Positions 40,315-52,800 of a stretch of 64,000 nt of DNA are shown in pieces; within the stretch, counting starts at the first letter, position 1; each line of letters begins with the position of its first letter. The stretch is from Balneolaceae bacterium (GTDB lineage Bacteria > Bacteroidota > Rhodothermia > Balneolales > Balneolaceae), in assembly GCA_020832285.1 (NCBI GenBank), contig JAFIFB010000110.1:1-64000 (forward strand). The letters run 5' to 3'. Under the pieces are notes generated by a model that saw only the letters and a list, made by a program, of their open reading frames with translations, did not search any database and was not told the origin of the DNA. Made by a program: the position numbers and the translations under genes.

Positions 40315-41070
40315 TTATCGTTGCTGCCTGAAGAAGTTCATCATCAGGTCGGCAAGGCCGAGGAGCTTAAGGTTTGATGAAAGTTCGGTTTTTGACCGGT
40401 CGAAATGACTGCTGTTAACAGAAGTGGCTTGTGCTCTGAATACCACTTCGTTATCCTTTTGTGCCTCTACAAGAAGCGGAAAACTATGGCTGTTCATCAC
40501 CATTTCTATAGGTATTTCATGATCAAACTGCGTAGTACCGGTACTGTACCAGGCATCAAGGAGCAGCCCCCAGTTCACTTTTATTCTGTCAGTGAGCCAA
40601 ACCGAGATCTGTTCACCGTCGTTGTCTCCTATCAGTATGAACTCATGAGCCTCTTTACCCTGTATTGTACGGGTATTTCCGGTTTCATATACCTTGTTTT
40701 CCCAGTCGAATACAGGCCGCTGCGATACGTCGGGCTTGCCCTGGACACGATTCATGATAGTAACAAGGTTTTCCAGTTCGTGCTTGGCCACTTTCAGGCC
40801 TTCGTTGTCGGTAGTAATCACCACAAAATCATCCTGATCATTTCTGACAAGGATCCCGCGAGCCTGCAAACCGGCCATCACATTCATGGCTATATTGGAA
40901 TCCACAAATATTCGATCTTTGGTGAATGTAAGGTTCAGGTGGCCTTCTTCACCCATTCCGCTGTTCGGATTATAGATCTGGTAGTTGATCTCTCCTTCGT
41001 ATTGTGCGGATGCAGTGGACGCCATCAGCAGCAAAAGAAGCGCAATCAGGGAAGAGAGGGTCGTTTTCAT
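40315..41070 (-). CDS. DUF4412-domain exported protein
   Basis: A 251-residue protein with a signal peptide (MKTTLSSLIALLLLLMASTASAQ). The mature N-terminus YEGEINYQIYNPNSG leads into the DUF4412 pattern (TFTKDRIFVDSNI, VVITTDNEGLKVAKHE, HEFILIGDNDGEQISVWLTD). The family is of unknown function and is common in Bacteroidota. It ends 9 nt before the 5'-nucleotidase C-terminal-domain gene, so the three genes likely form one operon. Confidence 0.85.
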   Translation of the reverse strand: MKTTLSSLIALLLLLMASTASAQYEGEINYQIYNPNSGMGEEGHLNLTFTKDRIFVDSNIAMNVMAGLQARGILVRNDQDDFVVITTDNEGLKVAKHELENLVTIMNRVQGKPDVSQRPVFDWENKVYETGNTRTIQGKEAHEFILIGDNDGEQISVWLTDRIKVNWGLLLDAWYSTGTTQFDHEIPIEMVMNSHSFPLLVEAQKDNEVVFRAQATSVNSSHFDRSKTELSSNLKLLGLADLMMNFFRQQR

Positions 41071-41155
41071 GAGGTATCAGAGAAATAGTTGATAATTGAT
41101 GTGGATATAACGATTGGGAAAAGTATCTATTTTTATACCGGCACAAAAACCTATT

Positions 41156-42292
41156 TCAGGCTTCCAGTTCAAGTTCCCGGCCCATGTTTACATTAACTTT
41201 GTGTATCCAGCCTCCGGCTACTACATCATCACCTTCATAGCATACCACGGCCTGACCAGGTGTAATCGCTTCTCGCCCGGCAGGAAAGTGTACTATAATT
41301 TCGTCATCCGAGAGCTGTTTGATGCTTCCAATCGCACCTTCGTCGTTGTACCGGATCTTCCCGGTAATTTCCATTTCACCTTCGGGAATGGAGTCATACT
41401 TCACCATATTTATCTCTTTAGCCCGGCAGGTGGTGCTGATGAGATCCTCTTTTTCACCTACGGTGATCACATTATTTTCTGCATCAATGTGGGTTACATA
41501 CACCGGCTTGCCCATCGGCAGGTGAAGCCCGCGCCGCTGACCGATGGTGTAGAACGGAAATCCTTTGTGTTTACCAAGAACGTTGCCATCCTTATCAACA
41601 AAAACACCTCCGCTTACTTTCTCTTCGAGATCGTTTACGCGCTCTTTCAGAAAGCGGTGATAGTTGTTATCTGGAATAAAGCAGATTTCATAGGAATCGG
41701 GTTTATTGGCCACATTCAGCAGGCCGTAATCTTCGGCAAATTGCCTGATTTCAGTTTTCCGATATTTTCCGAGCGGGAAGATGGTTCGCTCCAGATGTTT
41801 TTGCTCCACACCCCAGAGTGCGTAGGATTGGTCTTTTTTATGATCTTTTCCTTTGGAAATGACATAGCGCCCGTTCTCTTTGCGAACATTGGCATAATGA
41901 CCTGTGGCGATGAAGTCGCAGCCGAGGTTGTCTGCCCGGCGTAAAAGTGCTGCCCACTTGATGTGAGTGTTACAGAGAACACAGGGATTGGGCGTGCGTC
42001 CGCTGGTGTAATCTTCCACAAACCGGTCGATGACCCAGTTTCCGAATTCATCGCGGATATCCACTATAAAATGCTTGAAACCGTGTCGGACAGCGATATG
42101 ACGGGCATCATTCATCGATTCTACCGTACAGCATCCCGTTTCTTTCCCGTCATTACCACCACTCCGGTGATAATCCCAGGTTTTCATCGTAATTCCAATC
42201 ACTTCGTATCCCTGTTCATGAAGCATTACGGCCGAAACCGAAGAGTCAACGCCGCCGCTCATGGCAACAAGAACACGCCCTTTTTTACTCAT
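41156..42292 (-). CDS. mnmA: tRNA-specific 2-thiouridylase
   Basis: A 378-residue cytosolic enzyme that puts sulfur on U34 of tRNA-Lys, -Glu and -Gln. The PP-loop SGGVDSS (12-18) adenylates the uridine. Catalytic cysteines are Cys104 in PNPCVLCN and Cys204 in SYEICFIPD. The C-terminal domain with GQRRGLHLP and TPGQAVVCYEGDDVVAGG is complete. Length is standard. Confidence 0.97.
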   Translation of the reverse strand: MSKKGRVLVAMSGGVDSSVSAVMLHEQGYEVIGITMKTWDYHRSGGNDGKETGCCTVESMNDARHIAVRHGFKHFIVDIRDEFGNWVIDRFVEDYTSGRTPNPCVLCNTHIKWAALLRRADNLGCDFIATGHYANVRKENGRYVISKGKDHKKDQSYALWGVEQKHLERTIFPLGKYRKTEIRQFAEDYGLLNVANKPDSYEICFIPDNNYHRFLKERVNDLEEKVSGGVFVDKDGNVLGKHKGFPFYTIGQRRGLHLPMGKPVYVTHIDAENNVITVGEKEDLISTTCRAKEINMVKYDSIPEGEMEITGKIRYNDEGAIGSIKQLSDDEIIVHFPAGREAITPGQAVVCYEGDDVVAGGWIHKVNVNMGRELELEA

Positions 42293-42386
42293 TATTATTA
42301 AATTTGTTTAATCCTCAAAAAATAACACTTTTTTAAGGCATTTGCATCTTACGTGATTGCGTTAACGAAGCAGGACAGCCTTTCGT

Positions 42387-42809
42387 TTATCCGGAAAGAT
42401 TATAGTGTCGGATGATGGCAGTGTAATACTCTTCAAAATCTCTCAGGTTGTTTTTTAGAATCGATTTCAGAATGTCGGGATTGATCGATTCATATTCATG
42501 TACGGCAATATTACGGAACCCTACCATTTTGCGTAACCGTAAGGTAAGATCTTTGGGCAGAATATCGTTTTTAAGAAGGATATCAAAGTTCTCCCGAAGC
42601 TCTTGAGGTAAACCAAGTCCTTCATCTGCAACAATGTGAGATGCCAAATCTATGGAGCTCTGAACTGCGCGCTGAAGGTTCAGAATCATGATTTCCTGAA
42701 CATCAAGGTCATTCAGAGATTCAGGGTCAAGCTGTGTTATGTCGCTGATTCTTTTAAGGCAACGCTGAATGGAAGAGATTTTTGCAAATGCTACGTCCCT
42801 GTCAACCAT
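42387..42809 (-). CDS. HepT-like RNase toxin (DUF86)
   Basis: A 140-residue helical HEPN protein. The toxin motif R-x4-H-x-Y is complete: Arg99, His104, Tyr106 in RNIAVHEY. In HepT/MntA (type VII) systems this RNase is silenced by AMPylation of the motif tyrosine. The gene overlaps its antitoxin by 8 nt and is translated second. Confidence 0.92.
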   Translation of the reverse strand: MVDRDVAFAKISSIQRCLKRISDITQLDPESLNDLDVQEIMILNLQRAVQSSIDLASHIVADEGLGLPQELRENFDILLKNDILPKDLTLRLRKMVGFRNIAVHEYESINPDILKSILKNNLRDFEEYYTAIIRHYNLSG

Positions 42810-43203
42810 AAATTTTACCCTTCAGGATATTTTTTTCAATTACAGAGCGCACTCTCTTCAGGTCGTCATATTCGTTGATCGTGCGAACAAAAAAGTCGGA
42901 ATATAATCTATTGTCACGCTGTAAGATTTTTTCACCTTTTTTGAGCACCTGCATACAAATAATGGGGTTGGCCCGGTTCAGTACAACAAGATCAATCTCT
43001 TTTTTGAGTAGGGCTGTCAGTTCATCCTGAATATCCGGAAGCCGTTCTACAGAAGGTACTTTATCCGGGTAGAACAAAAAGGCAAGGTCCACATCGCTTC
43101 CGGGCAGTGATCGTCCCGAAGCTTCCGAGCCAAACAGAAACGCAACCGCTACATCAGGCTGCCGGGTGAGATAGTTCAATAAGATCTCTTTTTTGGTACT
43201 CAT
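42802..43203 (-). CDS. MntA-like nucleotidyltransferase antitoxin
   Basis: A 133-residue minimal nucleotidyltransferase. The GS-x10-DxD motif is complete (Gly25, Ser26, Asp37, Asp39 in GSEASGRSLPGSDVDL), and a further acidic residue lies in KEIDLVVLNRA. By family it transfers AMP to the paired HepT toxin. The 5' end has a separate upstream spacer of about 180 nt, so the pair is its own transcription unit. Confidence 0.92.
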   Translation of the reverse strand: MSTKKEILLNYLTRQPDVAVAFLFGSEASGRSLPGSDVDLAFLFYPDKVPSVERLPDIQDELTALLKKEIDLVVLNRANPIICMQVLKKGEKILQRDNRLYSDFFVRTINEYDDLKRVRSVIEKNILKGKIYG

Positions 43204-43381
43204 TGTAGAAAAATATCAAAAGAAGTCGAATTATCTCAATTTCTGTAGTTATTCAGTCGGAATAGAATCTCTTTTCAATAAGCCTGAATAATTCAAAAAA
43301 ATAGTTGGTTGGATGTACCACATTCTCCATCAGCAAGTTACATCTTAAAAGAGTAATTGTTGTTCTATCAACCTTCCGAAA

Positions 43382-43879
43382 TTACATATACAAATACGGC
43401 TTCCAGTGTTCCTGAATACCATTCAGAAGATTTTGGAAAAAGGTAATGTGTACAGGTCGGTAGGGTTTGATATTGAGCGGCATTCCGGCTTCTTCGGGTG
43501 TGCGGTTTCCTTTTTTAACATTGCAGGTGTTGCAGGCTGTAACCAGGTTCTCCCAGCTGTCGGCCCCGCCGCGGCTTTTGGGCAGAACATGATCGAGAGT
43601 GAGGTCTGATCGGGTTCCGCAGTACTGACAAGTACTCCGGTCTCGTTTCATTATGTTTCTGCGGGAAAGCACAATTTTAGCATACGGCAGGCGAATGTAC
43701 CTCCGCAGACGGATGACAGAAGGGTAGGAATACTCTTCGTTTACGGTCCGTATAACTTTATCCGGATCATCATGGAGCAATTCAGCTTTGTCCAGAAATA
43801 CGAGCTTAACGGATCGCTGAACAGAACAGACGGTAATGGGCTGATAATCTTGATTCAGAACTAATACTTCGGAATTCAT
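43382..43879 (-). CDS. HNH endonuclease
   Basis: A 165-residue protein. A short N-terminal domain (NSEVLVLNQDYQPITVCSVQ) precedes a zinc-supported HNH nuclease: CQYC (84-87), LDHVLPKSRGG with the catalytic His97, WENLVTACNTCN with Asn111 and CxxC (116/119). This HNH type is widespread in Bacteroidota as a free-standing gene. Its role (repair, restriction or RNA/DNA processing) is not established. Nothing nearby suggests a restriction system. Confidence 0.9.
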   Translation of the reverse strand: MNSEVLVLNQDYQPITVCSVQRSVKLVFLDKAELLHDDPDKVIRTVNEEYSYPSVIRLRRYIRLPYAKIVLSRRNIMKRDRSTCQYCGTRSDLTLDHVLPKSRGGADSWENLVTACNTCNVKKGNRTPEEAGMPLNIKPYRPVHITFFQNLLNGIQEHWKPYLYM

Positions 43880-44261
43880 GACTTTTTTAATTTAATCTGC
43901 CTATCTGAAGTAATGATATATTTTTTAATACGAAATATAAGCCTATCCATTATGGCGTATTTTAAATAAAAATTCAACCCGAATATGAAACGAGAAGTTT
44001 CTCAATTTTCAGAAACATTTCCTAAACGAGCAACTTTATATATTTAACCCTACGTCGCAAAGGTTTTCAAGAGCAGGTATGGTGTCTATAAAGACAAAAT
44101 AAAATAGCGGGTGAAAAGGTAATTTTTATGAATAGAGTATAAACCTCAGTTCGATTCATAATCAGTTTTGTTTATTCAGTATAAAGTCTTCCACCGGCTG
44201 GCAGAGAGATATAGAGGGGTGTCCATCCATTTTTTATATTTTGATGAACATTCCCCTTAAT

Positions 44262-44284
44262 CCTCCTTTTCCTAAGGAGGGCTT
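44262..44284. terminator. CCTCCTT/AAGGAGG hairpin with following T-run
   Basis: CCTCCTT (44262-44268) pairs exactly with AAGGAGG (44274-44280) around a 5-nt loop, followed by GCTTTT. It could end a plus-strand transcript, although no plus-strand gene lies upstream; more likely it is a repeat-element hairpin. Confidence 0.5.
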
Positions 44285-44376
44285 TTAAAGTCATCATTTA
44301 AGAATCGAACTAAGGTTATTACTTCAGAGCAAGGGGCCTTAAAATTATTTGGAGCTTACCTTTCGATTTAATATTC

Positions 44377-44386
44377 TACAAGTGTA
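44377..44386. promoter_or_regulatory. BlaI/MecI-type operator box 1
   Basis: TACAAGTGTA fits the TACAnnTGTA consensus of BlaI/MecI/CopY repressors exactly. Its centre is 20 bp (about two helical turns) from box 2, so two dimers could sit on one DNA face. It is 26 bp before the blaI-like start, indicating autorepression. Confidence 0.85.
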
Positions 44387-44396
44387 GAAATAAGTA

Positions 44397-44406
44397 TACA
44401 TCTGTA
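44397..44406. promoter_or_regulatory. BlaI/MecI-type operator box 2
   Basis: TACATCTGTA is a second perfect match to TACAnnTGTA and ends 5 bp before the blaI-like ATG. Binding here would block the start region of the operon. Confidence 0.85.
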
Positions 44407-44411
44407 GAACT

Positions 44412-44783
44412 ATGAAACTTTCAAAATCCGAAGAGCAATTGATGCAGTATATCTGGAAGCTGGGGAATGCTTTCATGAATGAATTATTGGATCAATATCC
44501 TGAGCCCAAACCTGCATCCTCCACAGTGGCAACCTTACTGAAGAGGATGCAGGATAAAGGTTGCGTTGGCTATAAAAAAATGGGCAGGTCGCGGCAGTAT
44601 TATCCCCTGGTCAAAAAATCGCACTATTTTTCAAAGCACATCAACAGCATCATCGAGAAGTATTTTGATGACTCCCCTGCTTCCTTTGCATCCTTTTTTA
44701 CCAGGGAAACCAACCTTACAGACGAACAGCTTTTAGAGCTGCAAAAGATTGTTGAAAAGGAACTTAAAAACCGAAAGCAATGA
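44412..44783 (+). CDS. BlaI/MecI/CopY-family repressor
   Basis: A 123-residue winged-helix repressor. The DNA-binding part has KLSKSEEQLMQYIWKLGNAF, then the recognition region SSTVATLLKRMQDKGCVGYKK and wing GRSRQYYPLV. The C-terminal helices dimerise. Two perfect operators lie just upstream, and the next gene overlaps in ATGA. BlaI repressors are normally inactivated by proteolysis triggered by an M56 sensor, but the M56 protein here lacks the peptidase core, so release must work differently or not at all. Confidence 0.93.
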   Translation: MKLSKSEEQLMQYIWKLGNAFMNELLDQYPEPKPASSTVATLLKRMQDKGCVGYKKMGRSRQYYPLVKKSHYFSKHINSIIEKYFDDSPASFASFFTRETNLTDEQLLELQKIVEKELKNRKQ

Positions 44784-45742
44784 TTTTCTACCTAATCACA
44801 TCCACCCTGTGTATGGGTCTGCTGTTGCTGTTCTATCGCCTTGTGCTGGAAAAAGAGAAGATGCTCCACATTAACCGGGGTTTTCTTTTGTTTAGCCTCC
44901 TTTTCTCCCTCATTATACCCATTGTGCCGGTGGGTATTGCAGACCAGGTTCCCGGCTGGATTCAGCAGCAATTTGACGTTCAGAATTCAATAACACAGCC
45001 CCATTCCACGGGTGTTGAGTATTTGCCTCCCGGAGCCGAATATGTTACCCCAACAGAGGCTGAGGGGTTGAACAGATCTTCATCTTTTTCCTGGCCCATG
45101 CTGCTTCTGGCTGTTTATGTGATGATTTCAACCTTGCTGGCAGCCAGGCTTTTACGGGTCATTCACATGATTCAACCTAAATCCCGTACACGATCTATAT
45201 TGAAAACTGTCTGCCTGATCCCGCTCTTCACTGCTTTTGCAATTCTGTTTGGATGTGAGGCTACCACACCCGATATGCAAACCAATGATAATGAAATACA
45301 TATCGCTTTTACAGATTCTGAGTTGATTGTGGTTAATGATGAATCGATGGCTGTGTCAGAGTTTGAAGCAATGCTAAACTCACTCCCCGAAGGCCCCGAT
45401 TACCAGTTTGTGATTGAACAACACCCCGATATGCTCACTGGTCCGGTTATGAATGTAAATCGTATCATTCACAACTTTCAACTGGAGGATGGATATCAAC
45501 CAAACTACATTGCAGTCATTGAAATAGATGATGCTGGTAATATCCGTCTGGATGGTGAGGAAGTGCTGAAGGATGATTTGGAAAGGGCGCTAATTGAGAT
45601 CACCGCTGATCACCAACCCATCATTAACTTTCGGGTTCACCGTGGTTCAGACTTTCAACTCATAAGGGATGTACAAGACCTGCTTCGCAAAAGCGGAGCG
45701 TTACGGATTAACTATTTTTCTATCAGATCTCAGTCTCATTAG
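44780..45742 (+). CDS. M56/BlaR1-like membrane protein without peptidase core, with ExbD/TolR-like C-terminus
   Basis: A 320-residue protein. Residues 1-130 match the N-terminal membrane part of Bacteroidota M56 (BlaR1) proteins: helix 1-20, FYRLVLEKEKMLHINRGFLL, helices at about 33-51 and 105-127. The next segment (TRSILKTVCLIPLFTAFAIL, about 137-156) is the helix that normally follows the zinc peptidase domain. No HExxH exists anywhere. Thus about 150 residues including the catalytic core are absent, joined in frame near residue 131. Residues about 246-318 (VIEIDDAGNIRLDGEEV, DLERALIEIT, VQDLLRKSGALRINY) follow the ExbD/TolR periplasmic-domain pattern, and about 175-235 may be a diverged second copy. 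Coupled to the BlaI gene. Confidence 0.8.
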   Translation: MIFYLITSTLCMGLLLLFYRLVLEKEKMLHINRGFLLFSLLFSLIIPIVPVGIADQVPGWIQQQFDVQNSITQPHSTGVEYLPPGAEYVTPTEAEGLNRSSSFSWPMLLLAVYVMISTLLAARLLRVIHMIQPKSRTRSILKTVCLIPLFTAFAILFGCEATTPDMQTNDNEIHIAFTDSELIVVNDESMAVSEFEAMLNSLPEGPDYQFVIEQHPDMLTGPVMNVNRIIHNFQLEDGYQPNYIAVIEIDDAGNIRLDGEEVLKDDLERALIEITADHQPIINFRVHRGSDFQLIRDVQDLLRKSGALRINYFSIRSQSH

Positions 45743-45749
45743 ACAGATC

Positions 45750-45813
45750 TTCGACTGCCGACTTTATTGAACATCACACTATCAAATTGACTCAAAACCA
45801 GTCGGCTGTCGAA
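45750..45813. repeat. 64-bp inverted-repeat element, copy 1
   Basis: It is bounded by TTCGACTGCCGACT (45750-45763) and AGTCGGCTGTCGAA (45800-45813), reverse complements with one mismatch. It lies between the M56 stop codon and the tail module. An equal-length copy is at 47327-47390. It carries the TGA that closes the tail-module frame upstream (45788-45790). Confidence 0.75.
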
Positions 45814-46081
45814 TTTCCCGCCACCAAGAAACGATTCGTCAGACGACTTGAATGTCAGCAGGCCTTACATCAATTTGGGCAAAAGTCGTCAGACGAACGA
45901 ACTCAACAAACGTGTTCAGGCATATTTAGAACTTAAAAATGGAGATTTTACCCAGGCAGAACTTCAAGAGGAGTATAATAATGTGATGGAGCTTCACGAC
46001 GAAGTTACCAAAGCCCAAATCGAACTCTACAGAGACAGCCTGTTGACACCGCCTGCACCCCCTGTTCCGCCGGCACCTTAA
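45791..46081 (+). pseudogene. Tail module, copy 1 (orphan C-terminal segment)
   Basis: An open frame without ATG (first possible start TTG at 45848) encoding DDLNVSRPYINLGKSRQTNE, then a helical run NKRVQAYLELKNGDF, EEYNNVMELHDEVTKAQIEL and a proline-rich end TPPAPPVPPAP. It is in the same reading frame as the M56 gene, separated by the two stops TAG (45740) and TGA (45788). The simplest reading is that it was the cytoplasmic or periplasmic tail of the M56 protein, cut off by the inserted inverted-repeat element and point decay. It may alternatively be a small TTG-started gene. Function unknown. Confidence 0.55.
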
Positions 46082-46127
46082 ATCCTGGCAAGCAACTAAC
46101 CACACTTATTAATCAAACAATAATAAT

Positions 46128-47270
46128 ATGGGGATTAAATTAAGCAAGCGGCTTCAAATGATATTCATTGTTACCTTATTGATTGGTTGTCAGCAGAAGC
46201 AAAAGGCTGCCTCAGACCAGAACGGAACCATTCTTAGTGAGTACATTACTTTCGTTTCAAATGATGATTTTTTGATTGGTGTACCATCCATAATCAGATT
46301 TGTTGGTTCCGAGTCATTTTTGATTTATGACTCTTCAACCCGGTTAGTGTACAATCTCGATCTAAGAAACAAGAGCAAACAAGCAATAGGCAGAGAGGGA
46401 CGCGGGCCGGGAGAGTATATGCGGGTCCAGAATTTTTTCTTCGAAAATGACAGGATTTATATCACGGACAATAGCCAGCAACTTATCCACAAATACAATG
46501 CAGGAGTAAACAGTGAGTTTATTTCATCATTCGACTACAGGCCCAGTCAGGCTCCAAGTGCGCCACCACCTCCTCCGCTGCCCCCACTTGACCTGCCCTA
46601 CATGGATACGGGGCCAATTGGCAGTTTTAATAATCAGCCACACATTACTTCTGATGGAAAGGTCTTAATTTATGAAATCCAGCCAGGTCAGGCCCTGTAT
46701 CGGCTTTATGATTGGGATGGAAACGAGATTATATCACTTGGAGAAGAGCCTGTAGGCAGCAATCTTGAAATAGATTACACTCAATTCAGAACAGAAATAG
46801 AAAAGAGGAGGGTACCCTCTTTTTTTGAATCAAATACATTCGTTGTAAATGATCGATCAAAACCTGACGAGTATTTCCTGATTCACAGTGCCATTCCCCG
46901 AATTGTAAAGTATAACTCTTCTGGAAATAGACTATGGGAATTTGATATAACAGAAATTCCGGAAATTGATCAGATATCTGATGATTATTTCGAGGCCATG
47001 GAAGAGATCCTCAATATTGCAGATACTGTGCTTCGTTTAAAGAAATATACATCTGGTGTTAGTGTAAAGAATGGGGATCTGTTTTTGTCAACATATACCT
47101 ATCCGGGAGTACCACTCTGGATTCATCATTTTGATAACAGTGGAATAATGCAAAATCGTTTTAAAATTGAATCTGAGGTTGAGTTATATCCGGTATTTGA
47201 AGTAGACTTCAGAAACAGGAATTTTCTTATTCCAACAGAAGAAGGTGAAGTAAGAGCATATTCATTCTAA
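46128..47270 (+). CDS. 6-bladed beta-propeller lipoprotein
   Basis: A 380-residue lipoprotein (MGIKLSKRLQMIFIVTLLIGC, Cys21). The repeats match the 6-bladed beta-propeller family of Bacteroidota: LVYNLDLRNKSKQAIGREGR, GPGEYMRVQNFFFENDRIYI, SDGKVLIYEIQPGQALYRLY, PRIVKYNSSGNRLWEFDITE. The GREGRGPGEY loop is a hallmark. A poly-proline insert (SAPPPPPLPPLDLP, about 143-158) is unusual. It is sandwiched between the two tail-module copies, so it arrived with, or was trapped by, the duplication. Probably a surface-exposed binding protein. Confidence 0.85.
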   Translation: MGIKLSKRLQMIFIVTLLIGCQQKQKAASDQNGTILSEYITFVSNDDFLIGVPSIIRFVGSESFLIYDSSTRLVYNLDLRNKSKQAIGREGRGPGEYMRVQNFFFENDRIYITDNSQQLIHKYNAGVNSEFISSFDYRPSQAPSAPPPPPLPPLDLPYMDTGPIGSFNNQPHITSDGKVLIYEIQPGQALYRLYDWDGNEIISLGEEPVGSNLEIDYTQFRTEIEKRRVPSFFESNTFVVNDRSKPDEYFLIHSAIPRIVKYNSSGNRLWEFDITEIPEIDQISDDYFEAMEEILNIADTVLRLKKYTSGVSVKNGDLFLSTYTYPGVPLWIHHFDNSGIMQNRFKIESEVELYPVFEVDFRNRNFLIPTEEGEVRAYSF

Positions 47271-47326
47271 AACCTGAGTTTGATTAAAAATGCCCTCAAG
47301 TAAAGATTCGTCAGACGAACGAATTC

Positions 47327-47390
47327 TTCGACTGCCGACTTTATTAAACATCACACTATCAAATTGACTCCGAACCAGTCGGCTGTCGAA
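47327..47390. repeat. 64-bp inverted-repeat element, copy 2
   Basis: The same arms as copy 1 (TTCGACTGCCGACT at 47327-47340, AGTCGGCTGTCGAA at 47377-47390), the same length, and nearly identical interior. It precedes the second tail module exactly as copy 1 precedes the first, showing that element and module were duplicated together. Confidence 0.75.
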
Positions 47391-47745
47391 TTTCCTGCCA
47401 TCAAATAAAGATTCGTCAGACGACTTGAATGTCAGCAGGCCTTACATCAATTTGGGCATAAGTCGTCAGACGAACGAACTCAACAAACGTGTTCAGGCAT
47501 ACTTTGATCTGAAAGATGGAGAGTTCACCCAGGCAGAACTTCAAGAGGAGTATGAAAAAGTGATGGAGTTTCATAATGAAGTTACCAAAGTCCAAATCGA
47601 ACTCTACAGAGACAGCCTGATGACACCGCCTGCACCCGAATCCCAATTTGAATCAAATAGTGAATCCACTTCATATAAATCTGACTCAGAAAACAATTCA
47701 CATACACTAACCAATGAACAACAAGCTGAAATTCGTATAGTTTAA
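47368..47745 (+). pseudogene. Tail module, copy 2
   Basis: The frame opens after the TGA at 47365 and has its first usable start as TTG at 47425. It repeats copy 1 (LNVSRPYINLGISRQTNELN, VQAYFDLKDGEFTQAELQEE, VTKVQIELYRDSLMTPPAPE) with scattered substitutions, then continues into a Ser/Asn-rich end (SNSESTSYKSDSENNSHT) to 47745. Several changes are conservative, so the module may still be translated. No upstream gene supplies a head for it here. Confidence 0.5.
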
Positions 47746-48065
47746 TTTTAACTATTCTTATAGAGTTTATTTTATTAAAATTTTGGAGTCACTGCTCAAA
47801 TGAGAATCTAATCGTTCTTAGTTATTTTTTGAAACCGGGCTGAGGGAATTTTCGTAAATAAGATTAAAAGAAAATCATCGAACAGAAACGAATGAAGGTA
47901 ATTCCGGATTTATCATTCATACAGTAACACCAAGAGCACTTCTGTATTGATGAATACAGGATTAGCCGTTGCACTGATACTCATACAATGTTTATGGTGT
48001 TAGTGAAGAATTTAAGACAACTTTGCGGCAGGTTTTTTATGTTTATGCCTTTAACGAGGTGACAG
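47746..48065. other. Intergenic leader of the HATPase gene with possible stem-loop
   Basis: No gene. About 60-150 nt before the HATPase start, TAACACCA (about 47926) and TGGTGTTA (about 47995) can pair, enclosing a tight CTGTATT/AATACAG hairpin (47942-47959). This could be a structured 5' leader. The support is limited to these matches. Confidence 0.35.
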
Positions 48066-48527
48066 ATGCTTGAAAATGGCTCGTATTTGCGCATAAATAT
48101 TATCCAAACAGACGATATGGCGGACAAGGTTTTTCGGCTCTTACTGAATTCGACTTACGAGGAGTCGGAAAAAGTGCCTGATTTCACATCAGATATTCAA
48201 AAAAAAAGCAATCTTACAGATGAGACAACCGGCAATCTGATGCTACTGCTCAGTGAGGCCGTTACCAATGCCATAGTGCACGGCAATAAACTGGATGCTT
48301 CAAAGCAGGTTATTGCAGAAGTACAAATTGAGCCAGAAAAAGTGATTTCTACAGTGAAAGATCACGGTGAAGGTTTTGATCCGGCTGCTACAAAAGATCC
48401 TCTTGCTGAAGAAAACCTTTTAAAGGAAGGAGGACGTGGTGTTTTTCTGATCCACGAGATCGCCGATTCTGTAGAGTACCTTGAGAATGGCACAAAAATC
48501 AGGTTTGTTATTAAACGAAAGGCCTGA
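48066..48527 (+). CDS. RsbW-like HATPase (anti-sigma regulatory kinase family)
   Basis: A 153-residue GHKL ATPase domain. The N box is SEAVTNAIVHGN (Glu64, Asn68), G1 is DHGEGFDP (99-106), and G2 is GGRGVFLI (122-129). Its size and lack of other domains fit RsbW/SpoIIAB-type anti-sigma kinases or the HATPase_c_2 proteins that partner with STAS and PP2C proteins. No anti-anti-sigma or phosphatase gene is adjacent, so its partner is elsewhere. It is convergent with tolC, 9 nt apart. Confidence 0.88.
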   Translation: MLENGSYLRINIIQTDDMADKVFRLLLNSTYEESEKVPDFTSDIQKKSNLTDETTGNLMLLLSEAVTNAIVHGNKLDASKQVIAEVQIEPEKVISTVKDHGEGFDPAATKDPLAEENLLKEGGRGVFLIHEIADSVEYLENGTKIRFVIKRKA

Positions 48528-48536
48528 TTACTTCGG

Positions 48537-49862
48537 TCAGTTCAATAAATTGCCCAGCTCACCGCTTAATTGAAGCAGCTCTGTTTCGGCTACTTTGGCT
48601 TCATAAAGGGCATTAATCAGCCGGTTTTCGGCTTCCAGGAGAGTTCGTTGTGCTTCACGGAATTCAAGAGAACTGATGGTTCCGATTCTGAAGCGTTCCA
48701 GAGCAATTTCCAGGGTCTGCTCGGCATTTTGAAAATTATCCTGTTCCAGATCAACCAGCTCGAGTGTGTTTTCGTAAGATCTGAAAAGAGCAGAAAATTG
48801 GGATTCCAATTGAAGTTTTCTCATTTCGTAAGAGATCTCAGCATTTTTTTCATTGATGCGGGCATTCTCCATACGCCGGTTTTGGTTGAATCCATCGAAA
48901 ATATTTACTCTTGCCGTGATGCCAATGGAAAAACCGGTTGTTTCATTAAATCGAATGAATCCGCCATCATTCTGGCTGCGGTTAAAACTATACCCCGAGT
49001 TTAATGATATTTCAGGAAAGCGTTCACCCCGAAGTTCACGAATTTCCAGTCGTGACAAGTCTTTTTCCATCCGGGCTATGGTCAGTTCGGTATTTTCCAC
49101 CAGCAGTTTTTGGTAGAGATCTTCTCTAATCAGGTTTCTGTTTATATTAATTTCTTCGGTTACTTCAAACTCTTCTTCAGGAGAGCGGGATAAAAGTTCA
49201 TTCAAGATGATTTTGGCCTCTGTTAGCAGGTATTGTTCTCGCAGGAGGGCTGCACGATCGGCATTCAGGTCAGACTTTGCCTGGAGAAGCTGGTATTGAG
49301 AACCGGAGCCCAAATCCACTTTCGTTTCTTCAATTTCGATGCGCTCCTGGGAAACATCAAGATTATCTTGCAGGATTATCAACTGTTCATGAATCCGGAT
49401 GACATTGAAATAGGCCAGCGATATTCTTGCCACGAGTGATTCCATATCGAGGCGAAGTTCACGGTCACTAACCTCACGGAGAGTTCCCAGACGATCATAG
49501 GATGTGAACATTCTGAAGCCATCGAACAGGGTCCAGCCCAAGCTTAAAGCAGCATTGGTAGTACTGCTGCGGGCGCCTGTGGTTGTTTGCCTTTCACCAC
49601 CGGCTTCAAATTCACTGTCTTCCACACGTTCAGTGTGAGAGGATGTCAAATCGAGTACCGGTAAAAACCCGGCATTACCGATGGAGTAATTATTATCGGC
49701 CTGTTCAAACAGATTTCGGGATATCTGCACACCGTAATTATTTTCCAGGCCGATGCTGATCGCATCTTCAAGTGTGAGCAGATCCTGCGCTTTTGAGGGC
49801 GTAAACAGGGATAAAGATATTATGAGAATAGCAGAGAGACTGGTAACAGATTTTTTTTTCAT
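48537..49862 (-). CDS. TolC-family outer membrane efflux protein
   Basis: A 441-residue protein with a signal peptide ending SKAQ (about residue 25). The two-fold repeated coiled-coil/beta layout of TolC is clear: LTLEDAISIGLENNYGVQ at the start of repeat 1 and a second block with ERFRIGTISSLEFREAQRTL near the end. It forms the outer membrane channel of the tripartite pump. The start overlaps the permease stop (TAATG). Confidence 0.93.
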   Translation of the reverse strand: MKKKSVTSLSAILIISLSLFTPSKAQDLLTLEDAISIGLENNYGVQISRNLFEQADNNYSIGNAGFLPVLDLTSSHTERVEDSEFEAGGERQTTTGARSSTTNAALSLGWTLFDGFRMFTSYDRLGTLREVSDRELRLDMESLVARISLAYFNVIRIHEQLIILQDNLDVSQERIEIEETKVDLGSGSQYQLLQAKSDLNADRAALLREQYLLTEAKIILNELLSRSPEEEFEVTEEININRNLIREDLYQKLLVENTELTIARMEKDLSRLEIRELRGERFPEISLNSGYSFNRSQNDGGFIRFNETTGFSIGITARVNIFDGFNQNRRMENARINEKNAEISYEMRKLQLESQFSALFRSYENTLELVDLEQDNFQNAEQTLEIALERFRIGTISSLEFREAQRTLLEAENRLINALYEAKVAETELLQLSGELGNLLN

Positions 49863-52800
49863 TATACGGAAGCCGCTTCAAGTTCTTTATCAGCTTTTAT
49901 AGCACGTTCAACCAGTTCTTTTTTGGCAACTTTGTCGGAAGCGAGGTAACTGTAAATCGCAGGGATTACATAGAGTGTAAAAATGCTTCCGATCAGCAGC
50001 CCGCCGATTACGGCGATACCCATAGAAGTACGGCTTTCTGCACCAGCCCCAAGGGCAAGTGCAATCGGTAAAATACCAAGGATGGTGGAAATCGAAGTCA
50101 TCAGGATGGGCCGAAAACGAACAGCAGCTGCATCCATGATGGAATCCATCACGCTCATTCCCTGTTCCTGGCGCTGATTGGCAAATTCTATAATCAAAAT
50201 TCCGTTTTTTGCAATCAGGCCAATTAACATAATGGCCCCAATCTGGCTGAATATGTTGAGTGTCTGATCGAAGTACCAAAGCGAAAGCAGGGTACCGAAA
50301 AGGGCAAGAGGTACTGTGAAAAGGATGATAAACGGATCGCGGAAACTTTCAAATTGCGCAGCCAGAACGAGGTAAATAAGTACGATGGCCAGGATGAAGA
50401 TAAACATCAGACTGGCGGCACTTTCTGCGAAATCGCGCGAAGGACCGGCAAGATCAGTGAAAATAGTGGGAGGTAAAAGCTGCTCAGCAATTTCATTCAT
50501 GGCGTCAATACCATCGCCGATGGTGTAACCGGGGGCAAGGCCTGCAGAAATGGTAGCCGAATTGAACCGGTTAAATCGATACAGCTGAGGCGGAGAACTG
50601 GATTCGGTAATGGTTACCAGATTATCGATCTGGATGAGGCTGCCGTTGTTATTGCGAACGGAAATTGTGCGAAGATCCACCGGCTCGTTTCTGAACTGAC
50701 GTTCCATCTGGCCGATCACATCATACTGCTTCCCGTCCATAATGAACATACCAAACCGGTTACCCGAGAGTGATAGCTGAAGGGTTTCTGCGATATCCCG
50801 AATCGAAACACCCAAAGCACGGGCACGGTCGCGGTCGATATTAACCTGCAGTTCGGGTTGATTGAATTTCAGGTCGATATCTGCTACACTAAACGCTGGA
50901 TGATTGTTGGCAGCATCAAGAAATTCGGGCACAATCTCTTCCAGTTCTTCGAGAGTTTGCGTCTGAAGAACAAATTGAACCGGAAGGCCGCCGCGCCTGC
51001 TTCCGATCGATTGTGGCTGGGTAACAAAAGTTTGTGCACCGGAAAGGCCCCTGAGGATACCGGTTAGCTCATCAGCTATTTCCTGCTGGGAACGTTCCCG
51101 CTCACGCTGGGGAACAAGTGTCAGGAATCCAAATGCTGAGTTTACGGAGCCCGCTGCTCCAAAACCCGGTGAGGTTACGGTGTTTATCGCATACAGTTCG
51201 GGTACATTTTCCCGGATTGTAGAAATCATCTGGTCTACGTAACTGTCCATATATTCGAATGTGGCACCTTCGGGAGCACTGGCTGCAATTCGCATTTGTC
51301 CACGGTCTTCGAGCGGAGCGAGTTCCTGCGGAAGATTTGCATATAGCAGGGCAATAAATCCAACAGCGGCAGCCATGATCACAAAGGCCATCCAGCGGAC
51401 TTTCATAAATGATTCAAGGCTGTTTTTGTAGACATCATTCAGCCAAATGAAAAAAGGTTCGGTCATGGTGTAGAACCGATTTTTCTCAGCGCCTTTGGAA
51501 AGTATTTTTGTGGCAAGCATCGGAGTAAGCGTCAATGCCACAAATGAGGAGATAATGACCGCCCCGGCAATCACGACCCCGAACTCCCGGAACAGCCGGC
51601 CGGTTTGCCCTCCCAGGAAAAGAATGGGCATAAATACGGAAACAAGTGCAAGGGATGTGGCAACAACAGCAAAGAAAATTTCTTTCGCCCCGAGTATTCC
51701 CGCTTCAACAGCGGGCAGACCGGATTCCATTTTGGCATATATATTTTCAAGCACCACAATGGCATCATCCACAACCAGGCCAATGGCAAGAACAATAGCC
51801 AGCATGGTGAGGACATTGATCGAAAACCCGGCTACGTACATAATGAAAAATGCCCCGATCAGTGCGATGGGAATCACAATAATGGGAATGAGAGTGGTTC
51901 GCCAGTCTCTCAAAAACAGGAATATTACAAGAATAACAAGTGTCAGCGCAATGAAAATCGTCTGCTGTACCTCGTTGACGGAATCCTGAATGTAATCGGT
52001 GGTATTAAAACCAACTGCGATCTCAATATCATCGGGAAGGTTTTGTTCAATCCGTTCTATCCGTGTAAAAAATTCTTCTGCAATATCTAACTGATTAGAA
52101 CCTGGCTGCGGAATTGCAACCACACCTACCATAGGAATGCCGTTTCTTTTCAGTACTGTTCGCATATTCTGCGCTTCCAGTTCGGCATATCCGATATCCT
52201 GAAAACGAACAATCCGGCCTCCCTCTTCGCGAATGATAAGATTATTAAACTCTTCGGGTGTGGTTAAACGGCCCATTGTGCGTACTGAAAGTTCGGTAAC
52301 CATACCTTCTATCCGGCCGGATGGCAGTTCCACGTTTTCCCTGTTCAATGCCTGCTGAACATCAAGCGGAGTGACCCGGTAAGCGGTCAGTTTCAGGGGG
52401 TCCATCCATAAGCGCATGGAATATTGTTTGGCCCCCCAGATGCGAATTTCACTGACTCCGGCAATGGTCTGAAGCTGTTCTTTAAACGTATTTTCAGCGA
52501 TGGCGGTAAGATCAAGAAGATCTCTGCGATCGCTGTTTACATTCAGGAAGATAATCGGGCTGGCATCGGCATCCGCCTTTCGGATGGTAGGCGGATCGGC
52601 ATCCGGCGGCAGGTTCCGCTGTGCTCTCGAAACCTGGTCGCGTACGTCATTGGCTCCAGTATCAAGATCAATATCAAGGTCAAATTCAACGGTAATGGTA
52701 CTTTGTCCTTCACGGCTCACAGAAGTAAGTGTACGAATGCCGGGAACACTGTTGATTGCCTCTTCAAGCGGCTCGGTGATTTGTGATTCAATGACATCGG

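Follow-up and report, generated by a model that had tools for sequence, protein, structure and literature searches.

A probable relic of an autoregulated BlaI/M56 receptor gene with ExbD/TolR-like domains in a Balneolaceae bacterium

The window analysed here comprises positions 1 to 64,000 of contig JAFIFB010000110.1 from the 5.33-Mb genome of a Balneolaceae bacterium (assembly GCA_020832285.1). Two exact TACAnnTGTA operators, TACAAGTGTA (44377..44386, lying within TTCTACAAGTGTAGAA) and TACATCTGTA (44397..44406, 20 bp downstream of the first), neither assigned to a strand, precede an intact blaI gene (44412..44783, forward strand), which encodes a 123-residue repressor of the BlaI/MecI type (PF03965, E=4e-28, 98.5 bits). 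We took a PF03965 match and TACAnnTGTA operators at the gene's own promoter as the two marks of such a repressor, and this gene possesses both. Three TACAnnTGTA sites are seen in the window where 0.45 are expected, and an operator pair at 20-bp spacing is unique within the genome. The start of a 320-residue ORF (44780..45742, forward strand) overlaps the end of blaI by four bases, the blaI stop codon overlapping its ATG. An earlier note on this DNA had described a BlaI repressor gene preceded by two perfect operators 20 bp apart and coupled to an M56-type gene, and this description holds.

The 320-residue ORF contains neither the HExxH motif nor the downstream glutamate motif, both of which are present in all intact relatives, and a Pfam profile search returned no match to PF05569. 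Its kept residues, namely the N-terminal transmembrane helices and the last one (TM4), are 80-83% identical to those of an intact sister protein, which indicates common descent with M56. TM4 (residues 137-159; 45188..45256, forward strand), placed by alignment and structure model, ends in LFGC-E, a lipobox-like sequence with a conserved Cys. A match to the NCBIfam model "lipo-invert" (E=0.08) was too weak for use.

The topology predicted by AlphaFold2 consists of TM1-TM3, TM4 and two ExbD-like beta-alpha units, modelled at residues 172-236 and 244-315. Unit 1 (residues 172-236; 45293..45487, forward strand) is seen in the model and is matched by the family ExbD-unit profile, while unit 2 (residues 242-315; 45503..45724, forward strand) also matches PF02472 over residues 244-310 with E=4.8e-5 and 23.9 bits, just short of the cut-off of 25.4 bits. 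Alignment of the two units with hhalign gave a probability of 87% (E=4e-6). The mean pLDDT of the model is 66, with the ExbD-like parts mostly at 75-90. The fold predicted for residues 242-314 superimposes on the TonB-bound periplasmic domain of ExbD (8p9r; Z 11.3, 2.0 A over 73 residues) and on TolR (5by4; Z 11.2), unrelated entries scoring about 7. The absence of HExxH, the ExbD/TolR-like C-terminus and the suspicion that this pattern occurs twice, all raised in the earlier note, are borne out, the second and earlier unit lying at about residues 172-236.

The closest relative is an intact M56-ExbD protein of 677 residues from the same genus (MAG CSSed162cmB_94, SLGL01000009.1), hereafter the sister, which is 83% identical to the window protein in the shared residues, the DNA being about 86-88% identical. 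It possesses HEQTH and NHEFLADE motifs, an M56 domain scoring over the Pfam cut-off, and three ExbD-like units. In its structure model residues 8-261 match Staphylococcus aureus BlaR1 (8exq, Z 14.7) and residues 386-458 match ExbD (Z 11.5), while the third unit (566-672) is recognized from Pfam and secondary structure; the transmembrane regions are of low confidence in this model as in that of the window protein. PF05569 and PF02472 are both matched by 14 of 14 intact relatives, those tabulated singly scoring over both cut-offs. Since the ExbD units are common to the whole intact M56 family, the proposal that the window protein had gained its ExbD/TolR-like sequence is wrong, and a recent gain of the domain was rejected.

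What distinguishes the window gene from its full-length sister is, in the first place, the missing core. The 8-bp sequence ATGATTCA occurs at positions 560 and 989 of the sister gene, a difference of 429 bp, and once in the window gene (45167..45174, forward strand), where its left flank corresponds to that of the sister's first copy and its right flank to that of the second. The lost 429 bp equal 143 codons, in frame, and comprise the zinc motif, the glutamate motif and the linker. In a 15-protein alignment the protease core is missing only from the window protein, being present in 14 of the 14 other relatives, and no matching core was found elsewhere in the window genome. Because the close homologs keep the core, the recent deletion that the earlier note gave as its first alternative, a deleted relic, stands, with a junction visible against an 83%-identical relative. 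Polarised changes in the kept parts number 18 in the window and 19 in the sister; the absence of faster divergence is as expected for a recent event. Pairwise dN/dS values, from the one genome compared for the species of the window, are 0.21-0.26 for the kept M56 parts, 0.11 for the blaI part and 0.06 for a TolC-like control. Dating the deletion by dN/dS was abandoned, as pairwise values are unable to separate what came before from what came after the event, and the low ratio of the kept M56 parts mostly reflects their history before the deletion.

The gene has suffered further, the ORF being also without the C-terminal third of the receptor. Directly after the TAG of the ORF a dispersed palindromic repeat of 159 bp composed of inverted-repeat pairs (45743..45901, no strand), absent from the sister gene, is inserted in the former frame. 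It is followed by a remnant of the tail of the M56-ExbD gene (copy 1; 45902..46077, forward strand), which is 90% identical to nucleotides 1604-1779 of the sister, and by a gene for a six-bladed propeller lipoprotein (46128..47270, forward strand) with a paralog on contig C127, the proteins being 79% identical. Beyond this gene the 313-bp segment 45748-46060, that is the palindromic repeat plus a piece of the tail, recurs as a second copy (92% identity; 47325..47637, forward strand). Two more deletions set tail copy 2 (47479..47745, forward strand) apart from the sister, each between 9-bp repeats, one between copies of ACAyTAACC and the other between copies of TGAAATTCG. The sister locus lacks both the propeller gene and the inserted repeat. 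With a close intact homolog and more than one disabling lesion, the window gene has what we ask of a relic. The earlier note was therefore right about the internal deletion, and missed the truncation and the remnant tail that lies downstream in two copies.

Other copies of the palindromic repeat are found in the window at 47325-47478 and, as a tandem pair that seems to lie between genes of trp type, on another contig (G000 C107:5027-5327); a related copy is present in the sister genome (G017 C59:4308-4454), outside the M56-ExbD gene. This dispersed element of 150-160 bp is possibly REP/MITE-like. Propeller lipoprotein genes recur beside M56-ExbD genes (window 46128-47270; L057, 5512-6567; L058, 6247-6819), and in another family a propeller gene (L112) lies near a secreted-looking stand-alone ORF which matches the ExbD unit (compare L111, 1897-2244). 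This recurrence may reflect a functional link.

We conclude that the 320-residue ORF is very probably a relic, left by the recent decay of an autoregulated BlaI/M56-ExbD envelope receptor. An alternative is that the protein is functional as a protease-free membrane sensor, for instance a ligand-titrating decoy or a partner with a poisoning or modulating effect on another M56 protein. In the same gene of a second species of the genus (L056) about 136 codons of the core have been lost independently and in frame, beginning just after HEITH, and the C-terminus is also broken, which speaks for decay; that both known core deletions of the genus are in frame, for which the chance is 1 in 9, counts against decay, as do the good start and coherent predicted topology kept by the window ORF, with TM1-TM3, TM4 and two folded ExbD-like units, and the low dN/dS of the kept parts. 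Core-less ORFs consisting of TM4 plus a periplasmic domain are also encountered repeatedly in other Balneolaceae, downstream of M56 genes, but these are built differently, being devoid of TM1-TM3 and carrying MORN-type tails. The architecture of the 320-residue ORF is not shared by any relative, and the same gene bears several other lesions, so that we regard a functional product as improbable.

ExbD and TolR require a transmembrane aspartate and an ExbB or TolQ partner. The earlier note's suggestion that the window protein signals through TonB/ExbB-type energy coupling can appeal to the fold of residues 242-314, which is that of the TonB-binding ExbD domain (8p9r, Z 11.3). The proton-carrying aspartate of the ExbD/TolR helix, however, has no counterpart in TM4, which holds no acidic residue in the window protein or any M56-ExbD relative, and no ORF recognizable as exbB/tolQ or tonB lies within 41000-50000, where the surrounding genes resemble those for an anti-sigma-type kinase, a TolC-like protein and an RND transporter. 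With the ExbD units joined to an M56 protease in every intact relative besides, energy coupling was set aside as very unlikely. That the core is missing through an assembly or binning artefact is scarcely credible, since assembly k-mers greatly exceed 8 bp in length, errors would hardly produce three deletions and a repeat insertion within a single gene, none of the other contigs carries the core, and the assembly has a completeness of 99% and a contamination of 0.16%.

Returning to the relic and the receptor from which it would derive, the nearest known systems are BlaR1/MecR1 with BlaI/MecI. In S. aureus BlaR1 the ligand is sensed by the external domain and BlaI is cleaved directly by the cytosolic zinc domain, signalling running from sensor to protease (PMC9834060). 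The intact relatives have the same gene pair, with transmembrane helices, a cytosolic zinc protease and an external sensor, and the Balneolaceae system shares the TACAnnTGTA operator type and the overlap of repressor stop and receptor start. It differs in that its sensor is ExbD/TolR-like rather than a penicillin-binding, transpeptidase-type domain, and the window copy differs further in having no protease. The ExbD/TolR periplasmic domain (PF02472) is recognized in the fold of unit 2 and, over the Pfam cut-off, in the tabulated intact relatives; unlike ExbD and TolR themselves, the M56-ExbD proteins carry one to three such units in tandem, joined to an M56 protease, with no transmembrane proton-channel Asp and no ExbB nearby.

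By analogy with BlaR1 and from the relatives, the intact system would consist of an M56 membrane protease, whose zinc site lies in the cytosol, joined to one to three periplasmic ExbD/TolR-type domains. A change sensed by these domains would switch on the protease, which would cleave the adjacent BlaI and so derepress the blaI-M56 operon. The whole cytosolic protease domain would have been lost, in the lineage of the window, by slippage or recombination between the 8-bp direct repeats, and the C-terminal third would have been lost then or earlier, through insertion of the palindromic repeat, duplication around the propeller gene and microhomology deletions. The leftover protein, with four predicted transmembrane helices and two ExbD-like domains, would be unable to cut BlaI. 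With the protease gone, the operon should be stuck in autorepression, presumably at little cost, as no further target of BlaI is apparent.

This last point rests on the distribution of the operators. The counterpart of the first operator in relatives is the extended palindrome TCTACAnnTGTAGA, which lies equally far from blaI, and that of the second is, in most relatives, a one-mismatch version at the same spacing. A perfect TCTACAnnTGTAGA site is present in 19 of 28 genomes of the window's genus, exactly one in all but one of them, and 16 of the 19 sites examined are located 36-40 bp before blaI; the single site of the window genome is the operon's own, operator 1. Since a single perfect extended operator is found in nearly every genome bearing the system, in most cases directly upstream of blaI, the main target of BlaI appears to be its own operon. 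A wider regulon was considered and rejected: the window genome has the one perfect extended site, and sites with at most one mismatch number 8, against 10 for a reversed control pattern, and are thus no commoner. We saw no beta-lactamase or PBP gene under the control of this BlaI, the operon's own site being the only perfect extended one in the genome.

The ligand may be sought in what is recorded of the relatives of the sensor domain. The periplasmic domain of ExbD binds peptidoglycan glycan chains transiently, and also binds TonB (PMC10771500), an interaction which one report places at the D-box (PMC10907165); TolR is likewise reported as able to bind peptidoglycan (PMC4646322). From these properties we infer that intact M56-ExbD proteins would be receptors for the state of the envelope or of its peptidoglycan.

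TM4 of the M56-ExbD proteins resembles a type II signal peptide, with a basic start, a hydrophobic stretch, usually LxGC or LxSC, and then Glu or Asp. The terminal Cys is invariant in the 15-protein alignment and absent from one more distant fusion; several Bacteroidota M56 proteins without it have an AxAQ-like signal peptidase I site in the same place. In S. aureus, signal peptidase cleaves the BlaR1 sensor at the corresponding position, Gly331/Gln332 (PMC9834060), and from these sites together we surmise that such processing may be a general trait of M56 receptors. We put forward, tentatively and with doubt as to the whole, a joint reading in which the intact systems form a BlaR1-type receptor class whose sensor, a chain of ExbD/TolR domains, reads peptidoglycan or TonB/TolA-like partners rather than beta-lactams, and in which cleavage by signal peptidase II at the conserved LxGC, behind the last transmembrane helix, may turn the sensor into a lipoprotein, the processing being part of the switch. 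If true, this would parallel the shedding of the S. aureus BlaR1 sensor by signal peptidase. At three loci (L033, L035, L058) the M56-ExbD gene is followed by another M56 gene, whose tail is of MORN type, and then by one or two core-less ORFs of about 220 residues. These consist of MKQFTSHIDFSLTKKRFKMM, a transmembrane helix, FCT and a periplasmic domain, and represent the M56 end as a stand-alone lipoprotein-like gene in several genera.

A profile of the TM4-plus-ExbD junction, run against 296 genomes of the phylum, recovered fused frames of about 430-640 residues from five Balneolaceae genera, plus one of 663 residues from another family; the other matches were ordinary ExbD genes of about 150 residues or partial. 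Among the carriers with a name are Rhodohalobacter sulfatireducens (strain WB101) and R. halophilus (strain JZ3C29), both with the intact system, and a Gracilimonas MAG. In the window genome itself just two M56 proteins were identified with confidence, both on contig C28 and of another subfamily; at this locus (L028, 2635-6558) a BlaI-type repressor gene is followed by two tandem intact M56 proteins with C-termini that are TonB-like by sequence. The papers searched contained no description of M56 or BlaR1 with ExbD, nothing relevant on BlaI with M56 in Bacteroidetes and no statement of what M56 proteases sense outside beta-lactam responses.

What appears new against these papers is the intact BlaI/M56-ExbD receptors, of the BlaR1 kind, the window gene itself being a relic which exposes their architecture. 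M56 proteases are common in the family, 74 of its 92 genomes having at least one over the Pfam cut-off. An ExbD-type sensor, whose relatives bind peptidoglycan glycans and TonB, offers a concrete candidate for the ligand of such a receptor, and the recurrent loss of the core suggests that some lineages can do without the receptor.
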